From: Sedimentisphaerales bacterium
GTDB lineage: Bacteria > Planctomycetota > Phycisphaerae > Sedimentisphaerales > Anaerobacaceae
Direction: 5' to 3'
DNA length: 64,000 bases
Assembly (NCBI GenBank): GCA_016927855.1
Contig: JAFGLV010000174.1
Location: forward strand, 1 to 64,000
Each line of letters opens with the position of its first letter. The first letter of the stretch is position 1. The notes under the pieces are model-generated. The model had not been told where the DNA came from and did no database searches. It saw only the letters and a list, made by a program, of their open reading frames with translations. The position numbers and the translations under genes are program-made. Below, in pieces: positions 3,476-55,846 of the stretch.

Positions 3476-3613
3476 AGAGCGTCTAACCGAACGACCTTTC
3501 TACGGCGATTACGGTACGGACGTCGTAGGGGCAACCCTCTGTGGTTGCCCTGGGCAGGCACGGGGGCCTGCCCCTACACAACCTTTCGCACCAGTCATTC
3601 TGTCAGACGTTCT
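3476..3613. repeat. Nested palindromic repeat, copy A
   Basis: Outer arms 3476-3496 and 3593-3613 are imperfect inverted repeats (AGAGCGTCTAACCGAACGACC-like against its complement). They enclose a 53-bp core at 3525-3577 that starts GTAGGGGC and ends GCCCCTAC. The core is made of two smaller hairpins with GGCAACC/GGTTGCC and GGGCAGGC/GCCTGCCC arms. The same arm-core-arm plan recurs at 14333-14460 and 43114-43237. It fills most of the 654-bp gap between the acylase and the OLD nuclease; I see no gene in that gap. Confidence 0.85.
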
Positions 3614-3792
3614 TGGAGACCGCCACGCGCTGGTCCACGCCCGCGATTCTACTACCGCCAATAGTAGTCAGTCAACAGGAAAGGAGAGAAGATCGGCTCA
3701 GCCGGTTTTGGCGTACATCGGCAGCCCATGGGGAATCCGTCCCCAAACCCCTGAGATTTTCCGCTTTGCGCCAATAGCATGTTCGCCGTTCC

Positions 3793-3840
3793 GTAGCATG
3801 GGCGTCCCGCCCATGAGCACGGGCGAGACGCCCGTGCTAC
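3793..3840. repeat. Palindromic repeat, GTAGCAYGGGCG family
   Basis: Starts GTAGCATGGGCG and ends CGCCCGTGCTAC, so the ends pair. The inside contains two smaller hairpins (GGGCGTCCCGCCC-like and CGGGCGAGACGCCCG). A second member of this family lies at 42172-42244. Probably an intergenic mobile palindrome; no coding potential. Confidence 0.8.
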
Positions 3841-14332: not shown

Positions 14333-14460
14333 GACCGTCTAATGGAATGACCGGGGTCGATGTGTAGGGGCAGGCCCCTGTGCCTGCCCGGGCAACCACA
14401 GGGGGTTGCCCCTACAACGCCTACAGCGCTATCACCGTGCAAGGATCATTCTGCTAAGGG
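14333..14460. repeat. Nested palindromic repeat, copy B (core inverted)
   Basis: Outer arms GACCGTCTAATGGAATGACC (14333-14352) and AGGATCATTCTGCTAAGGG (14442-14460) enclose the core at 14364-14415. Relative to copies A and C the core is in the opposite orientation. The right arm contains the stop codon of lepB (14454-14456) and the left arm abuts the SDR stop, so the element fills the convergent gap and could also end both transcripts. Confidence 0.85.
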
Positions 14461-20520: not shown

Positions 20521-21072
20521 ATGAACGAACCGACGGATGAGATTCTGGTCCAGCAGGCGTTGCAGGGCGATACGGGCGGCTTCGCCAAGCTGATCGGTCG
20601 CTATTACCCGGCGCTGGTGGCGCTGGCCCACGCGGTCGTGGCCGACCGGCATCTGGCCGAGGACATCGCCCAGGAGGCGGTCGCGGAGGCCTGCCGGCGG
20701 CTGCGAACGTTGCGTCAGCCTCAGCGTTTCGGCGCCTGGCTGGGCACGATCTGCCGGAACGTCGCCAAGGACACGCTCACCGAGCGCCGACGCCACCGCA
20801 CGGCACCCGTAGAGATGCAATCCATTGCGTCTGCACCGACCGGCCGCGACGGTGACGCCGACGAGGCGGCGCAGTTGACCGATGCGGTATGCCGGCTGCC
20901 CGAGCACCTGCGCCAGGTGGTGTTCATGCGGTACTACAACGCGATGACGTACGAGCAGATGTCCAATGTGCTGGGCCTCTCGCCGCAGGCGATCAACGGG
21001 AGGCTCCGACGGGCCCGAAGGCAGATCGCCAGGTCCATGAAGGCCAATGGTTTCGGGGACAACGATCGATGA
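20521..21072 (+). CDS. ECF sigma factor, locus 1
   Basis: 183 residues. Region 2 is visible as LIGRYYPALVALAHAVVADRHLAEDIAQEAV and region 4 as LPEHLRQVVFMRYYNAMTYEQMSNVLGLS followed by INGRLRRARRQIAR (quoted in parts). It should direct RNA polymerase to a small regulon, probably envelope-related. Its stop overlaps the next start by four bases (ATGA), so sigma and partner are translationally coupled. As in planctomycetes generally, no classical zinc anti-sigma is fused; the partner's N-terminal cytoplasmic part is the likely inhibitor. Confidence 0.92.
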   Translation: MNEPTDEILVQQALQGDTGGFAKLIGRYYPALVALAHAVVADRHLAEDIAQEAVAEACRRLRTLRQPQRFGAWLGTICRNVAKDTLTERRRHRTAPVEMQSIASAPTGRDGDADEAAQLTDAVCRLPEHLRQVVFMRYYNAMTYEQMSNVLGLSPQAINGRLRRARRQIARSMKANGFGDNDR

Positions 21073-24625: not shown

Positions 24626-26343
24626 ATGAAGAGGGCAATTCTACTCACGCTGGTGGCGGCATCGAATCCCGCCGCTCTGATTCATGCCGCAGGAGATATC
24701 TGGACGTACAAGACCGACATGCCAACCAAGAGAGTGATGGCTGGGGGCGGGGTCGTGAACGGGAAGATCTACGTGGTTGGTGGGTCCCTGGAGAACTACA
24801 GCGCCGCAACGACCGCAGAAATGTACGATCCCACCGCCGATGCGTGGATCAAGGTGGCAAGTATGCCAGCGGGGCGCGTGGGGCCTTCCACTATAACTCA
24901 TGGCGGGAAAATCTACGTGTTTGGAGGAGCCCATCCGAATGCATATGCGACGGCCACAAAGACTGTCTTCGTTTACGATCCGCTGACGAATACCTGGACT
25001 CAAAAGGGCGACATGCCCTATCCCAACGCGTGGTGTGGTGTCGCGGTTGTGGACGGCACGATCTATCTTATCGGCGGGCTGCTCAGTGCGTCGAGTACGC
25101 CTATCTCCACCGTCCTGGCCTACGACCCTCTGGCGGATACTTGGACACAGAAGGCCGATATGCCCACAGCTCGCGGCGGCCTCTCCGCTTGCGCCATAGA
25201 CGGGAAAATCTATGCTATCGGAGGAGCCCGAGAGGATTGGGCGGTGTCCTCTTACCGGCGCGTGGAAGTTTATGATCCGTCAACGGATACCTGGACCCGC
25301 AGATCAGATATGCCGACGGCGCGCTGGGGTCTGGGCACATGCGTGGTGGATGGGAAGATCTATGCAATAGGCGGTAGATTCGGACCTGACGTCTGCGCTG
25401 CCAACGAGGTCTATGATCCCTCCACTGACACTTGGGAGGCAAGGTCGCCCATGCAACAGAAGCGGAACGGCTGCCTCGTATGCCTAGTCGGAAGCAGGAT
25501 ATACTCGATTGGTGGAGTGTACATAGTTCCTCAGGAGACGTTCCTCGCGACGGTGGAGGAGTACGACACGGGTCTCGGCGTTCCGCTGCCGGACTTCAAC
25601 GCTGATGGCGTGGTATAGACATCGCTGACCTCTTACGGCTGATCGAATCGTGGGGCCAGAACGACCCGGCGGTGGACCTCGCGCCAGCGCCGTTCGGCGA
25701 CGGCGTCGTCGATCGAGCCGACCTGGAGGTTCTGATGGCGTACTGGCACCAAGAGTTCCAGGACCCGGCCCTGATTGCTCACTGGAAGCTGGATGAAACC
25801 GAAGGTGTCGATGCCCTGGATAGCGCCGGTGACCATCACGGAATCGTCATCGGCGCGCCGACATGGCAGCCTGACGCTGGAAAGGTAGGCGGTGTGCTGG
25901 AGTTCGACGGAGCAACCTGTGTGTTGACGGACTCGGTCCTCAATCCCAATGCCGGCATGTTCAGCGTTTTGGCCTGGATCAAAGGCGGTGCTCCTGGGCA
26001 GGTCTTCGTCTCCCAGGTCGACGGCGCTGACTGGTTGCTGGCCGATCCTGCAACGGGTACTCTGATGACCGATCTAAAGGAATTGACCACGCGTCGTCCC
26101 ATGGCGCTACACTCGTCGGCCCTCATCGCCGACGGGGATTGGCACCGCGTCGGGCTCGTCTGGGACGGCACGAACAGAATGCTCTATGTAGACGGCGTGG
26201 CGGTCGCAGCCGACACCCAGTCAGACCTGCCCGACTGCGACGGCGGTCTGCACCTCGGCTGTGGCAAAGACGCCGTACCAGGCACATTCTTCACCGGCCT
26301 GATCGACGACGTCCGCATCTACACCCGCGCGGTTACGCCATGA
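24626..26343 (+). pseudogene. Kelch-dockerin-LamG secreted protein, frameshifted
   Basis: Frame 1 (24626-25618) has a signal peptide and about six Kelch repeats, each with a YxVGG or YAIGG turn and VxVYDPxTDTWT. It reaches DFNADGVV, the first calcium loop of a dockerin-like pair, and then stops at TAG (25616-25618). From 25618 the next frame continues exactly as expected: DIADLLRLIESWGQND, a second loop GDGVVDRADLEVLMAYW, then a LamG domain ending RIYTRAVTP at 26343. A two-base TA surplus at about 25614-25617 explains the break. It is a recent pseudogene, an assembly error, or a two-piece product. The intact protein would be about 570 residues, secreted, and would bind glycans or cell-surface partners. 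Confidence 0.85.
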
Positions 26344-26411
26344 GAGGATCAGCCTGGGCAACGGTGTTGCCCACGCCGGTCTTGCCCCGGGCGGGTGCAG
26401 TGTACGCCAGA

Positions 26412-26488
26412 AATACGTAGTTTCCGCAAGTGATTCTGCGGCCGGAATCGGGTATCATGGAGATACTGGGGGTTCCTCTTTCGGAGGG
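26412..26488 (+). promoter_or_regulatory. Duplicated upstream region, copy 2
   Basis: AATACGTAGTT at 26412-26422, TATCAT at 26453-26458 and TTTCGGAGGG at 26479-26488, seven bases before ATG 26496. Agreement with copy 1 (box-to-TATCAT distance 41 against 42) while the sequence between has diverged indicates that these three blocks are functional. Confidence 0.7.
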
Positions 26489-26495
26489 CTGAAAG

Positions 26496-28214
26496 ATGGA
26501 GAGTCACCGGCCCATGATCGGCAGAAAGGAAAGGCAAGAGATGAAACCGCGAAACCGTGCCAGAATCACCCTCGTGCCCGTTGTCTTTGTGGTTGCTCTT
26601 ATGCTCTTTGGTGGGGGGGCTGCGAACGCAGATTACACCTTCGGTGAACTCGCCAATCTGGGGCCGACGGTCAATAGCTCGGCTCGTGACGAGGAACCGG
26701 GCCTCTCGGCAGACGGCCTGACGATATACTACTGCTCACTTCGGTCCGGGGGCTCCGGCAATTATGACCTGTGGGCGATCACCAGAGCGACCACGCAGGC
26801 CCCCTGGGGGACCCCCGTCAACCTCGGCTCCACCGTTAATAGCTCATCTCATGACTTCTCCCCGGATGTCTCAGCCGACGGCTTGTCACTCTACTTCGGC
26901 TCTGACCGACCCGGCGGATACGGCGGCTACGACATATGGGTATCACGGAGGGATTCGACAGAAGACCCCTGGGGTGCGCCGGCAAACCTTGGGCCCATGG
27001 TCAACACTTCAGAACCTGAGGGATGCCCGGCTATCTCGGACGATGGACGGGAGGTGTACTTCTGGTCCGGCCGAGCCGGTGGCTATGGCGATGCCGATAT
27101 ATGGGTGGCCAGACGGCCAACAGCACAGGACGACTGGGGTGCGCCGGAGAATCTCGGGTCGGCCATCAACGGCTCGACCACCGAGTTGTGTTGCGATATC
27201 ACCGCCGACAACCGCTGTCTCGTCTTTGTCTCCACCCGGTCAGGTGGCTACGGGGGCACCTATGGGGATATCTGGATCACGACTCGGCGCACGATAGATG
27301 ACCGGTGGGGGCCGCCCATGAATGCCGGGCCCATCGTGAACAGTTCGACGACCGACAACGGACCTTTCCTGTCGGTCGGTGGTTCCACTCTCTACTTCAG
27401 TTCCGAGCGGCCCGGCGGAAGCGGCGGCGCCGATATGTGGCAGGTGTCAATCAGCCCAGTCGTTGACTTCAGCGGCGACGGGAGCGTCGATGGCGAAGAC
27501 CTTCTCATCATGGCCGCACATTGGGGCGAAGTCTATCCGCCCTGCGACATCGGCCCCGCGCCCTTTGGCGACGGCGTGGTGGATCTCCAAGACGTCATCG
27601 TTCTGGCCGGGTACATCGGCAAGGAGGTGAACGACCCGACGTTAATCGCTCACTGGGCCTTAGACGAAAGTGAGGGCACTGAGGCGTTGGACAGCGCTGG
27701 CACGTACCACGGTGCGGTGATAGGCGCGCCCACATGGCGACCCGACGGCGGAAAGGCAGGCGGCGCCCTAGAGTTCGACGGAGCCACCTGCGTGCTAACG
27801 GATTCGGTCCTCAATCCCAATGCCGGTCCGTTCAGCCTCTTGGCCTGGGTCAAAGGCGGGGGGCCAGGGCAGGTTATCGTCTCCCAGGCCGGTGGCGCCG
27901 ACTGGCTGCTGGCCGACCCGGCGACCGGTGCGCTGATGACCGATCTAAAGGAATTGACCACGCGCCGCCCCACGGCGCTGCACTCGTCGGCCCTCATCAC
28001 CGACGGGGATTGGCACCGCGTCGGGCTCGTCTGGGACGGTGCGACTCGAATGCTCTGTGTGGACGGTGAGCAGGTCGCCATCGATACCCAGTCCGACCTG
28101 CCGGACAGTGACGGCGGTCTCTACCTCGGCTGCGGCCATGACGCGTTGCCGGGCACCTTCTTCACCGGCCTGATCGACGACATGCGCATCTACAACCGCG
28201 CGGTTGCGCCGTGA
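26496..28214 (+). CDS. PD40 propeller - dockerin-like - LamG secreted protein
   Basis: 572 residues. After a signal peptide (PVVFVVALMLFGGGAANA) come about five PD40/TolB-like propeller blades with the pattern LSADGLTIYYCSLRSGGSG and YDLWAITRAT. Near residues 325-375 there are two dockerin-like loops (DFSGDGSVDGEDLLIMAAHW; GDGVVDLQDVIVLAGY). The C-terminal 190 residues are a LamG (concanavalin-like) domain ending TFFTGLIDDMRIYNRAVAP. It is probably a secreted, surface-assembled glycan-binding protein. The start at 26496 is supported by the duplicated ribosome site; a second ATG at 26541 is possible. The LamG part is nearly identical in DNA to that of the frameshifted neighbour, so conversion or recent duplication is likely. 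Confidence 0.88.
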   Translation: MESHRPMIGRKERQEMKPRNRARITLVPVVFVVALMLFGGGAANADYTFGELANLGPTVNSSARDEEPGLSADGLTIYYCSLRSGGSGNYDLWAITRATTQAPWGTPVNLGSTVNSSSHDFSPDVSADGLSLYFGSDRPGGYGGYDIWVSRRDSTEDPWGAPANLGPMVNTSEPEGCPAISDDGREVYFWSGRAGGYGDADIWVARRPTAQDDWGAPENLGSAINGSTTELCCDITADNRCLVFVSTRSGGYGGTYGDIWITTRRTIDDRWGPPMNAGPIVNSSTTDNGPFLSVGGSTLYFSSERPGGSGGADMWQVSISPVVDFSGDGSVDGEDLLIMAAHWGEVYPPCDIGPAPFGDGVVDLQDVIVLAGYIGKEVNDPTLIAHWALDESEGTEALDSAGTYHGAVIGAPTWRPDGGKAGGALEFDGATCVLTDSVLNPNAGPFSLLAWVKGGGPGQVIVSQAGGADWLLADPATGALMTDLKELTTRRPTALHSSALITDGDWHRVGLVWDGATRMLCVDGEQVAIDTQSDLPDSDGGLYLGCGHDALPGTFFTGLIDDMRIYNRAVAP

Positions 28215-35619: not shown

Positions 35620-36354
35620 ATGCCGCAACGCCTGAAAGGAAAAGTGGCTCTCGTGACCGGCGCCAGTCGCGGAATCGGCCGGGCGATCGCCGTGGCGCTC
35701 GGCGCCGAAGGCGCCACGGTCGTCCTGTCGGGACGCTCGGTGCCGGACCTGAAGACAACGAGCCAGCAGGTGAGCGCTGCAGGCGGCGCAGCGGAGGTTG
35801 TCCCGGCCGAGTTGGAGGACGAAGCGTCGATTCGGAATCTCGTCGCAGAGACGAATCGGCGCTGCGGGCGGCTCGATATCCTCGTTAACAATGCTGGTAT
35901 CACGCATTCGGCGCCGCTAGCAGAAACGACGACCGAGGACCTGGACCGCTGTTGGGCGATCAACGCGCGAGCGCCGTTCATCCTCTGTCGCGAGACGCTG
36001 CCTTTGCTCAAGCAGGCCGAACGCGGGTATATCGTCAACATCGCTTCCGTGGTCAGTGTCAAGGGTTATCCGCTCCAGAGCGCGTATACCGCGTCCAAGC
36101 ACGCGCTACGCGGGATGAGCATGTCCCTGGCGGAGGAGCTGCGTGGTAGCAACGTTCGCGTGCACGTGATCTGTCCCGGCGGGGTCGACACCGAACTGGT
36201 CTCGCGCGTACGTCCCGACATTGAGAAGGCCGATCTTATCGGTCCTGAGGAAATAGCCGAGCTGGTCGTTTATCTCGTCACGCACCAGGGCAACGCGGTG
36301 CTCGACGAATTGCACGTGCGAAGGGCGACGTCGTCGCCGTGGTTTGTTTCGTGA
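35620..36354 (+). CDS. Short-chain dehydrogenase/reductase (FabG-like)
   Basis: 244 residues. TGASRGIG at 13-20, NNAG at 90-93, Ser143, Tyr156 and Lys160 (YTASK) make the classical SDR active site. The C-terminus (after GPEEIAELVVYLVTH) is typical for FabG-like 3-ketoacyl or sugar-alcohol dehydrogenases. The ATG is preceded by AGAGGTGC. Its stop is 10 bp before the GH2 start, so both are likely co-transcribed and the enzyme may oxidise a sugar released by the hydrolase; that is inference. Confidence 0.9.
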   Translation: MPQRLKGKVALVTGASRGIGRAIAVALGAEGATVVLSGRSVPDLKTTSQQVSAAGGAAEVVPAELEDEASIRNLVAETNRRCGRLDILVNNAGITHSAPLAETTTEDLDRCWAINARAPFILCRETLPLLKQAERGYIVNIASVVSVKGYPLQSAYTASKHALRGMSMSLAEELRGSNVRVHVICPGGVDTELVSRVRPDIEKADLIGPEEIAELVVYLVTHQGNAVLDELHVRRATSSPWFVS

Positions 36355-36364
36355 GGATGTGAGC

Positions 36365-39121
36365 ATGGGTGGCATGCGTAAGATGGCCGCGATGGTGTTG
36401 CTGGTTATCGGTACGAGCGTCGCGGCCGGGCAGGAGTCGCAGATCGTCTACCTGTCAGGGCGCGGAAACGACGATCCGGTCCGGTGGGACTTCTTCTGCA
36501 CCGCCGGGCAAAACAGCGAACAATGGACCACGATCGACGTGCCGTCGAACTGGGAGTTGAAGGGCTTCGGTTCGTACAACTACGGTCACGACCGGCGCAA
36601 GTCCGACGAGCAAGGCAAGTACAAACGTAGCTTCTCAGTCCCTGACGCCTGGCAGGCCCAGCGCATCTTCCTCGTCTTCGAAGGCGTCATGACGGACACC
36701 GAAGTCTGGGTCAACGGCCGGTCGGCCGGACCGAAGCACCAGGGAGGTTTCTACCGCTTCAAGTACGAGATTACCGATCTCGTCCAGCCGGGCGAGAACC
36801 TGCTGCAAGTGACGGTCAGCAAGGTCTCGTCCGATCGGAGCGTCGAGCAGGCGGAACGCCAGGCCGACTACTGGGTCTTTGGCGGCATATACCGACCTGT
36901 CTATCTCGAGGTCGTGCCCAAGGAGCTTATCGAATGGGTTGCGGTCGACGCGCGGGCCGACGGGACCTTCCACATGGATGTCCATCTCAACGGGAGCGCT
37001 ACGGCCGATGCGGTCAGATGCGAGATTGTAGGGCCGGGTGGCGGTCAACTCGGGCAGCCCGCCGAGACCACAATCGGCCAAGGCGCGAACATCGCAACCA
37101 TCCGCACCCAAGTGAGCGGGCACGAGAGGTGGACCGCTGAGACACCGAACCTGTACAGCGCAAAGGTCACCTTGCTCAAAGGCTCGGAGGTTCTGCACAC
37201 GATCACGCAACGGTTTGGCTTTCGCACGTTCGAGGTCCGGCCGCGTGACGGCTTGTACCTCAACGGCCAGAAGATCCGCCTCAAGGGTGTCTGCCGGCAC
37301 AGCTTCTGGCCTGACTCGGGACGCTGTCTCAGTCGCAAGATCAATTACGACGACGTGCGCCTGATCAAGGAGATGAACATGAACGCGGTGCGCATGTCCC
37401 ACTACCCGCCGGACCAGGACTTCCTTGATGCATGCGACGAGCTGGGCCTCTATGTGCTCGACGAGCTGGCCGGCTGGCAGAAGCCGCCCTACGATACTGA
37501 GATCGGCAAGAAGCTCGTCGCCGAGATGGTCCCTCGCGACGTCTGCCATCCGTGCATCCTCTTCTGGGACAACGCCAACGAAGGCGGCTGGAACCGCGAC
37601 CTGGACGGCGAGTTCGCGCTCTACGATCTGCAGCAGCGAACGGTCCTGCACCCTTGGGAGCTCTTCGGCGGGATCGACACGGACCACTACGAGAGCTACG
37701 CGAGCACGCTGAACAAGCTCGCCAGCGGCAATCTGCATATGCCGACCGAGTTCCTGCACGGCCTCTACGACGGCGGTCACGGCGCCGGACTGAACGACTA
37801 CTGGACCGCGATGACCGCTTCGCCCATGGGTGCCGGCGGGTTCCTCTGGGCGCTGGTCGATGAAGGCGTCGTGCGCACCGACGAAGGCGGGCGCATCGAT
37901 GTGCGCGGCAACCTCGCGCCCGACGGCATCGTCGGTCCCTACCGCCAGAAGGAGGCGAGCTTCTACACCATCAAGGAGATCTGGTCGCCGATCCGGATTC
38001 CACTCGAACGCCTCCCCTCCGGCTTCGACGGCAAGCTGCCCGTGGAGAACCACTACGACTTCACGAATCTCAGCGCGTGCCGTTTCACCCTTGAGCTGGT
38101 GAACTTCCCTGACCCCGAGCAAGAGCGCGGCGGTCATGAGATCGTCGCGGAGCGGACCGTCGGCGCGACAGACGTGCCGCCGCACGGGAAAGGCACTTTG
38201 TCTCTGCCGCTGCCTGCCTATTGGCGCGACGCCGAAGCCCTCCACCTGACGGCTCGCGGTCCCGGCGGTGAGGAAATCTGGACGTGGTCCTGGGACCTCC
38301 AGAGCCTGGCCCACTACCGCAACGCCTGCGTCGAGACCGAATCGGAGGCCGGGACGCAACCGCGCGTTGATCCACAAGAGGACGGCATGCAGGTCCACGC
38401 CGGCGATCTGACACTCGGATTCGCGACGACCGGTCGGCTCGCTTACGTCAGCGTTGGCGACAGACGCATGGCCTTCGAAGGACCCGAGCTGCCGGTCGGC
38501 ACGATGCAGCCTGCCAGGGTGACGGTCTCGGAAATGGGTGACGCTGTCGTCCTCGACGGCGAGTACAAAGGCAACCTGAGACGCGCCTGCTGGACCGTTT
38601 ACCCGACGGGATGGGTTCGCTTGGACTACGAGCTCGCGCTGGAAGGGCAGTTCGACCTGTTCGGGATCAGCTTCGACTACCCCGAAGAGAAGATGCGTTC
38701 GATGCGCTGGCTGGGACGCGGGCCCTATCGCGTCTGGAAGAACCGGATGCAGGGTGGCAAGCTCGATGCGTGGACCAACGCCTACAAGGACCACGTGCCC
38801 GGCCAGACGTGGGACTTTCCCGAGTTCGAAGGGTACTACCGCGACTGGCACTGGGTGACCTTCGAGACCGAGGAAGGCGATATCACGATCGTCAACGACA
38901 CCGATAATCTGTTCCTGGGTGTCTACACGCCCAACGACGGACCCGCTCCGGCCAACACGAAGCTCGACGCCCCGCCGACCGGCATTGCCCTGCTCCATGG
39001 TATCCCGCCGATCGGCACCAAATTCCAGAAGCCAGGCGCCCTCGGACCGGAAGGACAGCAGAACACCGCCTCCGGCGCCTATCGCGGCAGCGTGTGGTTC
39101 AAGTTTGACGTTACGCCGTAG
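36365..39121 (+). CDS. Glycoside hydrolase family 2 (beta-galactosidase-like), secreted
   Basis: 918 residues from ATG 36365 with a signal peptide (MAAMVLLVIGTSVAAG). N-terminal jelly roll (DVPSNWELKGFGSYNYGH, then VFEGVMTDTEVWVNG), immunoglobulin-like domains, TIM barrel with KGVCRHSFWPDSGR. Acid/base Glu406 in WDNANEGGWN and likely nucleophile Glu462 in MPTEFLHG, followed by GGFLWALVDEG. A galactose-mutarotase-like beta domain follows (GRGPYRVWKNR). It should release beta-linked sugars, for example galactose, from polysaccharides in the periplasm or outside. The stop codon TAG lies within the first bases of a palindromic repeat, so the original C-terminus may have been altered. Confidence 0.92.
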   Translation: MGGMRKMAAMVLLVIGTSVAAGQESQIVYLSGRGNDDPVRWDFFCTAGQNSEQWTTIDVPSNWELKGFGSYNYGHDRRKSDEQGKYKRSFSVPDAWQAQRIFLVFEGVMTDTEVWVNGRSAGPKHQGGFYRFKYEITDLVQPGENLLQVTVSKVSSDRSVEQAERQADYWVFGGIYRPVYLEVVPKELIEWVAVDARADGTFHMDVHLNGSATADAVRCEIVGPGGGQLGQPAETTIGQGANIATIRTQVSGHERWTAETPNLYSAKVTLLKGSEVLHTITQRFGFRTFEVRPRDGLYLNGQKIRLKGVCRHSFWPDSGRCLSRKINYDDVRLIKEMNMNAVRMSHYPPDQDFLDACDELGLYVLDELAGWQKPPYDTEIGKKLVAEMVPRDVCHPCILFWDNANEGGWNRDLDGEFALYDLQQRTVLHPWELFGGIDTDHYESYASTLNKLASGNLHMPTEFLHGLYDGGHGAGLNDYWTAMTASPMGAGGFLWALVDEGVVRTDEGGRIDVRGNLAPDGIVGPYRQKEASFYTIKEIWSPIRIPLERLPSGFDGKLPVENHYDFTNLSACRFTLELVNFPDPEQERGGHEIVAERTVGATDVPPHGKGTLSLPLPAYWRDAEALHLTARGPGGEEIWTWSWDLQSLAHYRNACVETESEAGTQPRVDPQEDGMQVHAGDLTLGFATTGRLAYVSVGDRRMAFEGPELPVGTMQPARVTVSEMGDAVVLDGEYKGNLRRACWTVYPTGWVRLDYELALEGQFDLFGISFDYPEEKMRSMRWLGRGPYRVWKNRMQGGKLDAWTNAYKDHVPGQTWDFPEFEGYYRDWHWVTFETEEGDITIVNDTDNLFLGVYTPNDGPAPANTKLDAPPTGIALLHGIPPIGTKFQKPGALGPEGQQNTASGAYRGSVWFKFDVTP

Positions 39122-39169
39122 GGGGCAACCTGTGGTTGCCCAGGGCGGGCACAGGGACCCGCCCCCTAC
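39118..39169. repeat. Palindromic core repeat, copy D (overlaps GH2 stop)
   Basis: Begins GTAGGGGGC and ends GCCCCCTAC with the same two inner hairpins as the core of copies A-C but without outer arms. The TAG at 39119-39121 inside the first arm is the stop codon of the GH2 gene. Confidence 0.85.
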
Positions 39170-42171: not shown

Positions 42172-42244
42172 GTAGCACGGGCGTCTCGCCCGTGAGAGCA
42201 GGGCCATTTAGCCCTGCGGGACATGGGCGGGACGCCCATGCTAC
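42172..42244. repeat. Palindromic repeat, GTAGCAYGGGCG family
   Basis: Starts GTAGCACGGGCG and ends CGCCCATGCTAC, with an inner GCAGGGC/GCCCTGC hairpin. Second member of the family seen at 3793-3840. It lies between the divergent-end of the sigma gene and the 3' end of the PEP-CTERM gene. Confidence 0.85.
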
Positions 42245-42248
42245 GATA

Positions 42249-42809
42249 CTACGAACGGTGTTTGGCTCGGCGCAAAGCCAAGGCGCCGAGGCCCAGCAGC
42301 AGGACGCTGGTCGGCTCCGGTGTCGGCACGACCGGCACCGGGACGGGAACCGGCACGGTTTTGGCTCCGCCTCCTCCCGAGACGCTAAAGCCGGGGCTCT
42401 TGAGATCGGTCAGGGAAGGCAACAACTGACTGGGACCTCCGCCTCCGCCGCTCAGCGCGAGCGTTCTCTCCATGCCGTTGTCCCGAACGGAGCGAAAGAC
42501 TGCGACCACGATCTTCGCGGCGTCCACCTTCACGGTGGTCTGCCGGCTCTTGGGGTCGGAGACGTCGCCGATCCAGTAGGCGAACTGGTAGCCCGGCTGC
42601 GGGCTGGCCGACAGCGTCACGATCGAATTGGCGCTGTAACGGTGCGTACCGACCCTCGGCGTCACCGTGCCGGCCTTGACCGGACTGTGCTCGATGCACA
42701 GATCGTAGGCTGCCGTCCATGGGGACTCCGGCTCCGTGGCGCGGACCGCCGTCACCGTGGACAGGAATCCCACCATCAGCGCCACCAGTTGTATCGTACG
42801 TCGCTTCAT
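42249..42809 (-). CDS. PEP-CTERM sorted protein with InlB-type repeat
   Basis: 186 residues. A signal peptide is followed by a single domain like the divergent InlB B-repeat (GTVTPRVGTHRYSANSIVTL, then GYQFAYWIGDVSD and VDAAKIVVAVF). A Gly/Pro/Val-rich linker leads to the sorting signal PTPEPTSVLLLGLGALALRR ending in basic residues, the PEP-CTERM pattern recognised by exosortase/EpsH. It would be processed at Pro-Glu-Pro and released to the exopolysaccharide or surface. No exosortase gene is in the window. A sigma-70-like promoter lies 124 bp upstream. Confidence 0.9.
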   Translation of the reverse strand: MKRRTIQLVALMVGFLSTVTAVRATEPESPWTAAYDLCIEHSPVKAGTVTPRVGTHRYSANSIVTLSASPQPGYQFAYWIGDVSDPKSRQTTVKVDAAKIVVAVFRSVRDNGMERTLALSGGGGGPSQLLPSLTDLKSPGFSVSGGGGAKTVPVPVPVPVVPTPEPTSVLLLGLGALALRRAKHRS

Positions 42810-43113: not shown

Positions 43114-43237
43114 AGAGCCTCTAACAGAATGACCTGTCGCGCTACGGACGTTGTAGGGGCCACCCCCTTGTGGTTGCCCTGGGCAGGCACGGGGACCTGC
43201 CCCCTACCCATCCACCGGTCATTCTGTCAGGCGCTCT
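43114..43237. repeat. Nested palindromic repeat, copy C (best preserved)
   Basis: Outer arms 43114-43134 (AGAGCCTCTAACAGAATGACC) and 43217-43237 match as inverted repeats at 18 of 21 positions. Core 43153-43207 runs GTAGGGGC to CCCCCTAC. The stop codon of the PP-loop gene (43236-43238) is formed at the edge of the right arm. Confidence 0.88.
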
Positions 43238-54856: not shown

Positions 54857-55846
54857 CTAGCGATTCAGGTTCTGTATGCATATCCGCGCGTTGCGCTTGA
54901 GGCGCTCGATACCGAGGCGGTAGATGGGGGAGCCGGCAAATTCTGCTTCGAACGATTCAGGCGCCATCTCCAGGATGCGCTGCAAATGCACCCTCTGCCT
55001 ATCCGGATAGAAGCGGAAGCGCTCGTTCGCACAGGATGGAGCGGCGTCACGGTAAGGACAGGCCAGCACGCATTCGTCGCAGCCGAAAAGCCGGTCGCCG
55101 ATCCGTGCCGCCAGCTCCGGGTCGATCGCGCCTCTGTGCTCGATCGTCAGGTAGCTGATACACCGGTTCGCGTCGAAGCGGCCATCGGCGCGTAGCGCTG
55201 CTGTGGGGCACGCGCGCACGCAGCGGTCGCAGCCGGCACACGTTGACGCGGTAGAGACGCAACATCTTGCGTCTTCATCCGTTCGTAATAGAGCGCTCGT
55301 AACAATCTCGCCCAGCAGGACCTGGGGACCGAGCGTCGGGTGGATGAGCGTATGGCTACGGCCGATGAAGCCCAGACCGGCACGCAGCGCCAAAGCGCGC
55401 TCGGCCAGCGGGACCGAATCGACGCAGACTTTGAAACGCATCGCTTTCGCCGTCCGCTCGCGCATGAATACCGCCAGCTCGTGCAGCAAGGGCTTCATGA
55501 AATCGTGATAGTCCTCGTAGCAGGCATATTGCGCCACCCTCCCGACCGGTCCGGTAGGGGCAACCCCCTGTGGTTGCCCAGGGCAGGCACAGGGGCCTGC
55601 CCCTACAAGCGGTTTGTAGTTCAGCGCGACTACTACGACGGACTGCGCCCCGACGAGCAGCGCGCCAGGACTGAGGCGCTTCTCGACGTTGCGGCGCATG
55701 TAGTCCATCTGGCCGGCATGGCCAGAGTCGAGCCAGGTGTGAAAACGTTCGACCTGGGCCGGTTCGATAGGCGCGGCGTCGGTGATACCGACCGCGTCGA
55801 AGCCCAACTCTCGCGCCTTATCCTTAATCTGCTGTTCCAGACCCAT
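54857..55846 (-). CDS. queG: Epoxyqueuosine reductase with in-frame palindromic insert
   Basis: 329 residues from ATG 55846. It reduces epoxyqueuosine to queuosine in tRNA, using cobalamin and two [4Fe-4S] clusters. The clusters are CAGCDRCVRACP (Cys203, 206, 209, 213) and GCDECVLACP (Cys256, 259, 263); Asp143 in CVDSVPLAER is the proton donor region. Residues 81-98 (VGAGPCACPGQPQGVAPT) are encoded by palindromic repeat copy E, inserted in frame between ALNYKP and GRVAQYA, where other QueG proteins have a short loop. The rest of the protein is intact, so it may still work. An excellent TATAAT lies eight bases upstream of the ATG and no ribosome site is seen, which suggests a leaderless mRNA. 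The open frame to 56188 is not used. Confidence 0.92.
   Translation of the reverse strand: MGLEQQIKDKARELGFDAVGITDAAPIEPAQVERFHTWLDSGHAGQMDYMRRNVEKRLSPGALLVGAQSVVVVALNYKPLVGAGPCACPGQPQGVAPTGPVGRVAQYACYEDYHDFMKPLLHELAVFMRERTAKAMRFKVCVDSVPLAERALALRAGLGFIGRSHTLIHPTLGPQVLLGEIVTSALLRTDEDARCCVSTASTCAGCDRCVRACPTAALRADGRFDANRCISYLTIEHRGAIDPELAARIGDRLFGCDECVLACPYRDAAPSCANERFRFYPDRQRVHLQRILEMAPESFEAEFAGSPIYRLGIERLKRNARICIQNLNR
55554..55606. repeat. Palindromic core repeat, copy E, inside queG
   Basis: A 53-bp core starting GTAGGGGC and ending GCCCCTAC, almost identical to the core of copies A-C, located within the queG reading frame. It is read on the minus strand as 18 codons without a stop. Outer arms are absent. 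Confidence 0.9.

Follow-up and report, generated by a model that had tools for sequence, protein, structure and literature searches.

Background

The window analysed here, 64,000 nucleotides of a Sedimentisphaerales genome, contains a palindrome of 53 bp that lies in frame inside queG, the gene for tRNA epoxyqueuosine reductase. The locus raises the question of what the palindrome is, how it came to lie in a conserved enzyme gene and what it means for the enzyme.

An in-frame REP in a protein gene is of a kind already published. In 2013, Di Nocera et al. (PMC3733652, main text) described GTAG REPs in frame in ORFs ('REP-decorated proteins'), with inserts of 20-30 aa in known enzymes, including the tRNA-modifying truB and truA. 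In 2018, Quentin et al. (PMC6006769) described in-frame REPs inside RAYT ORFs. In view of these two reports, the queG case is not a new type. What is new here is that many unrelated repeats have landed recurrently in the loops of QueG.

Results and discussion

The host gene and the in-frame palindrome

The identity of queG is clear. The gene product scored 276 bits against the TIGR00276 equivalog (cutoff 200) and contains the Pfam domains QueG_DUF1730 and Fer4_16. Its AlphaFold model matched 5d6s with a TM of 0.83, and its fold resembles the epoxyqueuosine reductases of S. thermophilus and B. subtilis (TM about 0.83). The invariant residues C141, D143 and E149 and every Fe-S cysteine are intact. 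The source genome (G000) is a 5.3-Mb MAG in 180 contigs with 87% completeness (about 13% missing), and this was the sole full-length queG found in it; the other matches to the query were short REPIN fragments. As the catalytic and Fe-S residues are intact and no other full-length copy was found, the decorated QueG probably has to work, and we infer that it still does.

The initial annotation, that the palindrome is in frame in queG and introduces no stop, was confirmed. The 53-mer at positions 55554-55606 is GTAGGGGCAACCCCCTGTGGTTGCCCAGGGCAGGCACAGGGGCCTGCCCCTAC, with the ends GTAGGGGC...GCCCCTAC. It starts at codon phase 0 in the TIGR00276 gene and runs from V81 into T98, of which it supplies two bases, the first and the second; its translation, VGAGPCACPGQPQGVAPT, is open throughout. 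The features of the locus and of the window are listed in Table 1.

Table 1. Features of the queG locus and related elements in the window
Feature	Position	Strand	Remarks
REPIN copy, 53 bp	3525..3577	+	In longer palindromic frame (..ACCGAACGACC/..GTCATTCTGTCAG)
REPIN copy, 52 bp	14364..14415	+	
Degenerate copy of second REP family	20809..20832	+	GTAGAGATGCAATCCATTGCGTCT
925-codon ORF	36344..39121	+	Ends at TAG of the 39118 REP; glycoside hydrolase 2-like by inspection
Degenerate REPIN copy	39118..39169	+	GTAG end is the TAG stop of the 925-codon ORF
Degenerate REPIN copy	43153..43206	+	Within longer palindrome AACAGAATGACC...GGTCATTCTGTCAG
queG, tRNA epoxyqueuosine reductase	54857..55846	-	329 codons; two in-frame REP insertions
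Second REP in queG, other GTAG family (GTAGAGACGCAACATCTTGCGTCT/TC)	55251..55276	+	Encodes part of DEDARCCVSTAST
REPIN (REP doublet, 53 bp) in queG	55554..55606	-	Encodes residues 81-98, VGAGPCACPGQPQGVAPT
REP half 1, GTAGGGGCAACCCCCTGTGGTTGCCC	55554..55579	+	
REP half 2, GTAGGGGCAGGCCCCTGTGCCTGCCC	55581..55606	-	Orientation opposite to that of half 1; one base separates the two halves

The insert had been placed between ALNYKP and GRVAQYA. The place is right, but one L and GPV are part of the host sequence, so that the context reads ALNYKPL / insert / GPVGRVAQYA. As 53 is not a multiple of 3 and the loop from LNY to DYH has 41 residues here, compared with mostly 29-33 among 76 distinct loops of the family, QueG has not simply gained 18 residues. 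About 10 loop residues that are common in relatives are absent from it. An alignment gap falling exactly at residues 81-98, which the initial annotation had proposed as a check, was not seen; the entire loop is hypervariable, and the relatives carry other sequences in it. No empty-site queG allele was found among the relatives compared, the nearest QueG being 66% identical. Since a clean empty site was not seen and the loop lacks these residues, the insertion was probably accompanied by a loss or an exchange of loop sequence.

The palindrome is a GTAG-tagged REPIN

The 53 bp form a doublet of 26+1+26 nt, composed of two inverted GTAG-tagged hairpins. Each half has the tetranucleotide GTAG at its foot, followed by an 8-bp hairpin. 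Folded as single-stranded DNA, the doublet formed one long hairpin of -24.1 kcal/mol (z -5 compared with shuffles). The stems covary: among 55 distinct halves from several genomes, stem positions 9-11/20-22 were paired in 93%, whereas independent columns at the three variable stem positions predict 76, 69 and 43%.

A genome-wide search for the two-ended pattern gave 49 perfect-ended copies; the reversed control pattern gave 0. Of these copies, 47 are 53 bp long and 10 equal the consensus. At least 11 genome copies are a single mismatch away from the queG copy; the REPIN family has thus spread recently. In the window, GTAGGGGC occurs 8 times (1.3 expected by chance). Taken together, these counts and the fold rule out a chance resemblance. 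All four additional window copies named in the initial annotation exist (3525, 14364, 39118 and 43153), but the one at 39118 is not purely intergenic. No consistent target-site duplication of 1-2 bp was observed across the 49 copies, and an Rfam search gave sub-threshold chance matches to miRNA models and nothing else.

Outside this genome, the GTAGGGGC doublet was found in 15 of the 99 genomes searched, all from the family or order of the window, and, through a peptide scan, in six further MAGs, Nitrospirota among them. One of these six MAGs has an intergenic copy identical to the queG REPIN at 53 of 53 bases.

About thirty intergenic copies have longer palindromic flanks. Such flanks are absent at queG, where the unit is therefore the 53-bp core. 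In G000, two families of larger palindromes enclose the REPIN (copies L053-L098 and the window copies at 3525, 14364 and 43153); the arms of the nesting palindromes are TAACAGAATGAYC...GGTCATTCTGTTAG in about thirty copies and TTTGTAGTGACGCC...ACTACAAAC in another group. The window also contains another dispersed palindrome, CATGGGCGGGACGCCCATGCTACG, as an inverted pair (3781-3815 and 42222-42256), and, at 25651-27821, a 300-bp direct repeat (68% identical, spacing 1871 bp) of tandem duplicated gene segments.

On each strand, two of the three frames of the REPIN are stop-free, and the sole stop codon is the TAG within the GTAG foot. Since on either strand the TAG-reading frame alone is closed, the element is well suited to survive in genes. 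By its foot, stem, inverted doublet and dispersal, together with the REP-flanked RAYT genes described below, the element is a GTAG-tagged REPIN.

RAYT genes as the likely mobiliser

A Pfam Y1_Tnp search of G000 gave seven matches, none directly flanked by GTAGGGGC. The cognate RAYTs of this genome score weakly with Y1_Tnp and were recovered by using a GTAGGGGC-flanked RAYT as the query: two Nitrospirota MAGs have small HUH transposases with GTAGGGGC REPs flanking and inside the gene, and the Nitrospirota RAYT identified three relatives in G000, the C40, C39 and C73 genes. The C40 RAYT (L245) has 79-bp REPINs on its 5' and 3' sides, the GTAGGGGCAACCCCCTGTGGTTGCCC half of which is identical to that of the queG copy. 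The REPs flanking the C39 RAYT (L244) are GTAGGGGCGAATAATCATTCGCCC. The C73 RAYT is intact and is flanked by another REP, GTAGAGACGCAA. One in-frame TAG interrupts the C40 gene, where relatives have the W of LWQRNY, and one interrupts the C39 gene, after VEAC; both ORFs are otherwise intact. To judge from these sequences, the C40 and C39 RAYTs may be inactive. The REPIN mobiliser may be dead, or it may be located in the missing part (about 13%) of the MAG.

RAYTs of the same type in G083, G023, G036, G104, G005, G099 and G101 are flanked by GTAGGGGC-type REPs, contain them, or both. REPs lie in frame within the RAYT ORF between the HUH and Y motifs, a trait of subclass 2.4; the internal REPs map to around +260 to +400 in these ORFs (L246, L247, L248, L226, L231, L228, L222 and L220). 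The single perfect doublet of G005 is inside its RAYT ORF. The motifs of the relatives are MPNHIHGI, LWQRNY and YIANNP, and those in G000 are NHIH and YISDNP, with TAG for W, in C40, and NHVH, WQ and YIADNP in C39. Judged by motifs and gene anatomy, the cognate RAYTs are assigned to TnpA-REP subclass 2.4 (RAYT group 4).

Other RAYTs, flanked by GTAG REPs of their own, were also observed (L007 at G000 C39:45657, L139 and L154, with GTAGCCCAGCC.., GTAGGGTGTGCA.. and GTAGGATGGGCA..); these genomes thus contain several REP-RAYT systems side by side.

A second REP and the variable loops of QueG

A second REP, from another GTAG family, is in frame in the same gene. Its positions 55251-55274 are identical at 24 of 24 bases to a REP that lies beside the intact C73 RAYT in G000, and 0 occurrences are expected in the window by chance. 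It lies in a low-confidence loop ahead of the first Fe-S cysteine of QueG and brings two cysteines beside the Fe-S motif. These comparisons indicate that queG is decorated by two different RAYT-REP families.

The initial annotation had suggested modelling the structure to see whether the insert is a surface loop. In the model, the insert lies in a low-pLDDT loop that connects the strand with NYKP at its end to the one that begins with GRVA. The pLDDT is 59 for residues 81-90, 67 for residues 91-100 and below 50 for residues 193-199, and about 90 or more over most of the remainder. Both REP sites are the places of largest length variation in the QueG alignment.

The loop fillings in the QueG proteins of relatives are unrelated in sequence and length, and many are short and repeat-free. 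Others, in other genera, are expanded and hold different repeats. The QueG loop of L174 holds the CATTGCGAGCGAAGCGAAGCAATCTC repeat, to which the genome of L174 has 14 more matches, and that of L160 holds TTCCCGCGTTCGCGGGAA and an array of ATCGAGAATCGA, both found elsewhere in its genome. In L322, the loop contains an HGQDARAT-encoding repeat that is present at other loci. An ACAGAGG array fills the loop of L046 and is also found in L093, and, by inspection, L317 has an inverted pair of GTAGGGTGGGC REPs. In the second loop, L174, L035 and L301 have CHSERSEES-like translations of further repeats (assigned by inspection). Both QueG sites are hypervariable loops in which unrelated repeats have landed recurrently.

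Other decorated genes

The search by peptide for other hosts of the element, also proposed in the initial annotation, gave in-frame copies in further genes of the same genome and of other MAGs. In G000, the same REPIN is found in a pdxB-like dehydrogenase gene, an M56 peptidase gene and a GH106-type gene; a membrane protein without a Pfam match (L108) is probably decorated as well. Relatives in Sedimentisphaerales have the REPIN in an MsrB-MsrA fusion, in the linker between the domains. In the Nitrospirota MAGs, it is found in tgt, lpxK, a histidine phosphatase gene and a histidine kinase gene, and Pfam domains surround the insert. Many of the long ORFs that overlie intergenic copies looked spurious (arginine-rich and antisense to real genes) and were left out of the gene count.

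In Nitrospirota tgt (L251-L280), the loop before LFGIVQG is another hot spot and holds at least 12 different repetitive fillings, palindromic or minisatellite, which include one REPIN and one single GTAGGGGC REP (L259); the plain loop is RCLEAKNENQALFG. Compared with the E. coli length, tgt seemed to have gained exactly 18 aa, but the loops of close relatives, which range from 43 to 80 residues in the stretch measured, do not bear this out. TGT, like QueG, is a queuosine enzyme.

Origin of the insertions

The explanation that we hold with high confidence is that a RAYT-linked REPIN landed in frame in a tolerant loop of queG with near-neutral effect, and that a second RAYT family did likewise. 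REPINs are non-autonomous palindromic elements, and the transposases that copy or move them are RAYTs (TnpA-REP, HUH Y1). A single copy would have entered the queG coding sequence, carried there by the RAYT itself, and would have survived owing to its two stop-free frames per strand and to a disordered loop that accepts almost any length or sequence. A REP of the second RAYT family would then have landed in frame in the other tolerant loop. The 18-residue Gly/Pro/Cys-rich segment of QueG is most likely near-neutral ballast.

The REPIN could also have been placed in the loop by a process independent of a transposase, such as template switching or recombination between repeats. Besides REPs, relatives have minisatellites, tandem or inverted, in their loops, and in other QueG and TGT proteins the loop inserts that resemble minisatellites seem to arise in this manner. 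About 10 host residues are missing from the loop, which argues against a clean insertion, and both cognate RAYTs in the assembly (C40 and C39) have a stop. The REPIN in queG, however, is complete, its two GTAG ends are exact and it carries none of the flanks of the other copies, and we regard a transposase-independent origin as rather unlikely. It is very improbable that the insert is a selected adaptive or regulatory module, in which an mRNA hairpin or a Cys/Pro-rich peptide alters expression or the binding of a metal or a partner. Such a role would fit the strong hairpin within the queG ORF, the two cysteines added beside the Fe-S motif by the second insert and the repeated hits on the same loops in many relatives. 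Yet what fills the loop differs between relatives without any relation in sequence or length, in many of them the loop is short and repeat-free, and the occurrence of the same peptides in unrelated proteins speaks for tolerance rather than for a QueG-specific role. As the fillings are unrelated, the sequences compared do not support a function for the inserted peptide.

A repeat from elsewhere joined into queG during assembly is a conceivable error in a MAG of 180 contigs, but the repeat of 53 bp is shorter than the usual read length, the queG frame is unchanged on either side of it, and similar in-frame insertions are present in several independent assemblies; an artefact is thus extremely unlikely. 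We give just as little credence to a Rickettsia-type palindromic element (RPE) in place of a REPIN. Like an RPE, the queG element is palindromic, dispersed and in frame within ORFs; it is, however, GTAG-tagged, 53 bp long and RAYT-linked, and its ends are GTAG/CTAC, not CGTC. The likeness to Rickettsia palindromic elements drawn in the initial annotation holds in that a mobile palindrome has become a protein segment, but the closer identity is a GTAG REPIN of a RAYT system.

The insertion of RAYT-linked REPs into tolerant loops may be part of a wider pattern. It is possible, although on the whole doubtful, that the loops of certain housekeeping enzymes, QueG in Sedimentisphaerales and TGT in Nitrospirota, are standing acceptors of mobile palindromes whatever their origin, with subclass-2.4 REPINs as favoured entrants. 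Such REPINs would enter proteins well by virtue of source copies that lie within the RAYT frame, where the VGA...APT frame is kept stop-free. If this is true, REPINs would be a continuous source of ready-made protein loops.

Comparison with known systems and significance

As in the REP-decorated proteins of PMC3733652, the REP is wholly inside a conserved gene, queG, and the frame is kept on both sides. The elements in the main text of that paper share with ours the GTAG foot, the hairpin, the inverted dimers and GTAG ends that serve as TAG stops; GTAGGGGC was not found in that main text. Unlike the cases described there, two REP families are present here in one enzyme, and the site is an acceptor that recurs across a bacterial family. 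The RAYTs agree with group 4/subclass 2.4 (PMC6006769) in their NH[IFV]H, WQ and YIxNNP motifs and in their double-foot REPs. That paper describes the subclass mainly from Cyanobacteria and Bacteroidetes, whereas ours are from Planctomycetota (Sedimentisphaerales) and Nitrospirota MAGs; a further difference is that the two GTAGGGGC-flanked RAYTs of G000 each have one TAG. The REPINs of Bertels and Rainey (2011, PMC3116915) are likewise inverted doublets that form one long hairpin, are dispersed and are RAYT-linked. Nearly all of those in SBW25 lie outside genes; several of the REPINs described here are in frame within genes.

Rickettsia palindromic elements (PMC10969869, and the main text of PMC3733652) share the presence of a palindrome in frame in unrelated genes. 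They differ in sequence superfamily, in being often longer and in having no linked RAYT: the first-described RPEs are about 150 bp (PMC10969869), and according to the main text of PMC3733652, RPE-4 and RPE-6 are members of the CGTC superfamily and flank no RAYT.

Our literature search for queuosine genes with REPs gave nothing relevant. We did not find in the literature a description of one enzyme decorated by two RAYT families, or of unrelated repeats that recurrently enter the loops of QueG and TGT.

The queG locus is a multiply supported case, outside Rickettsia, of mobile non-coding palindromes becoming protein in a conserved enzyme, and the likely mobiliser of the queG REPIN is in the same genome. 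The two loops of QueG, which many unrelated repeats fill within one bacterial family, are a natural experiment on how far an enzyme tolerates foreign sequence, and their fillings could show whether such inserts ever gain function.
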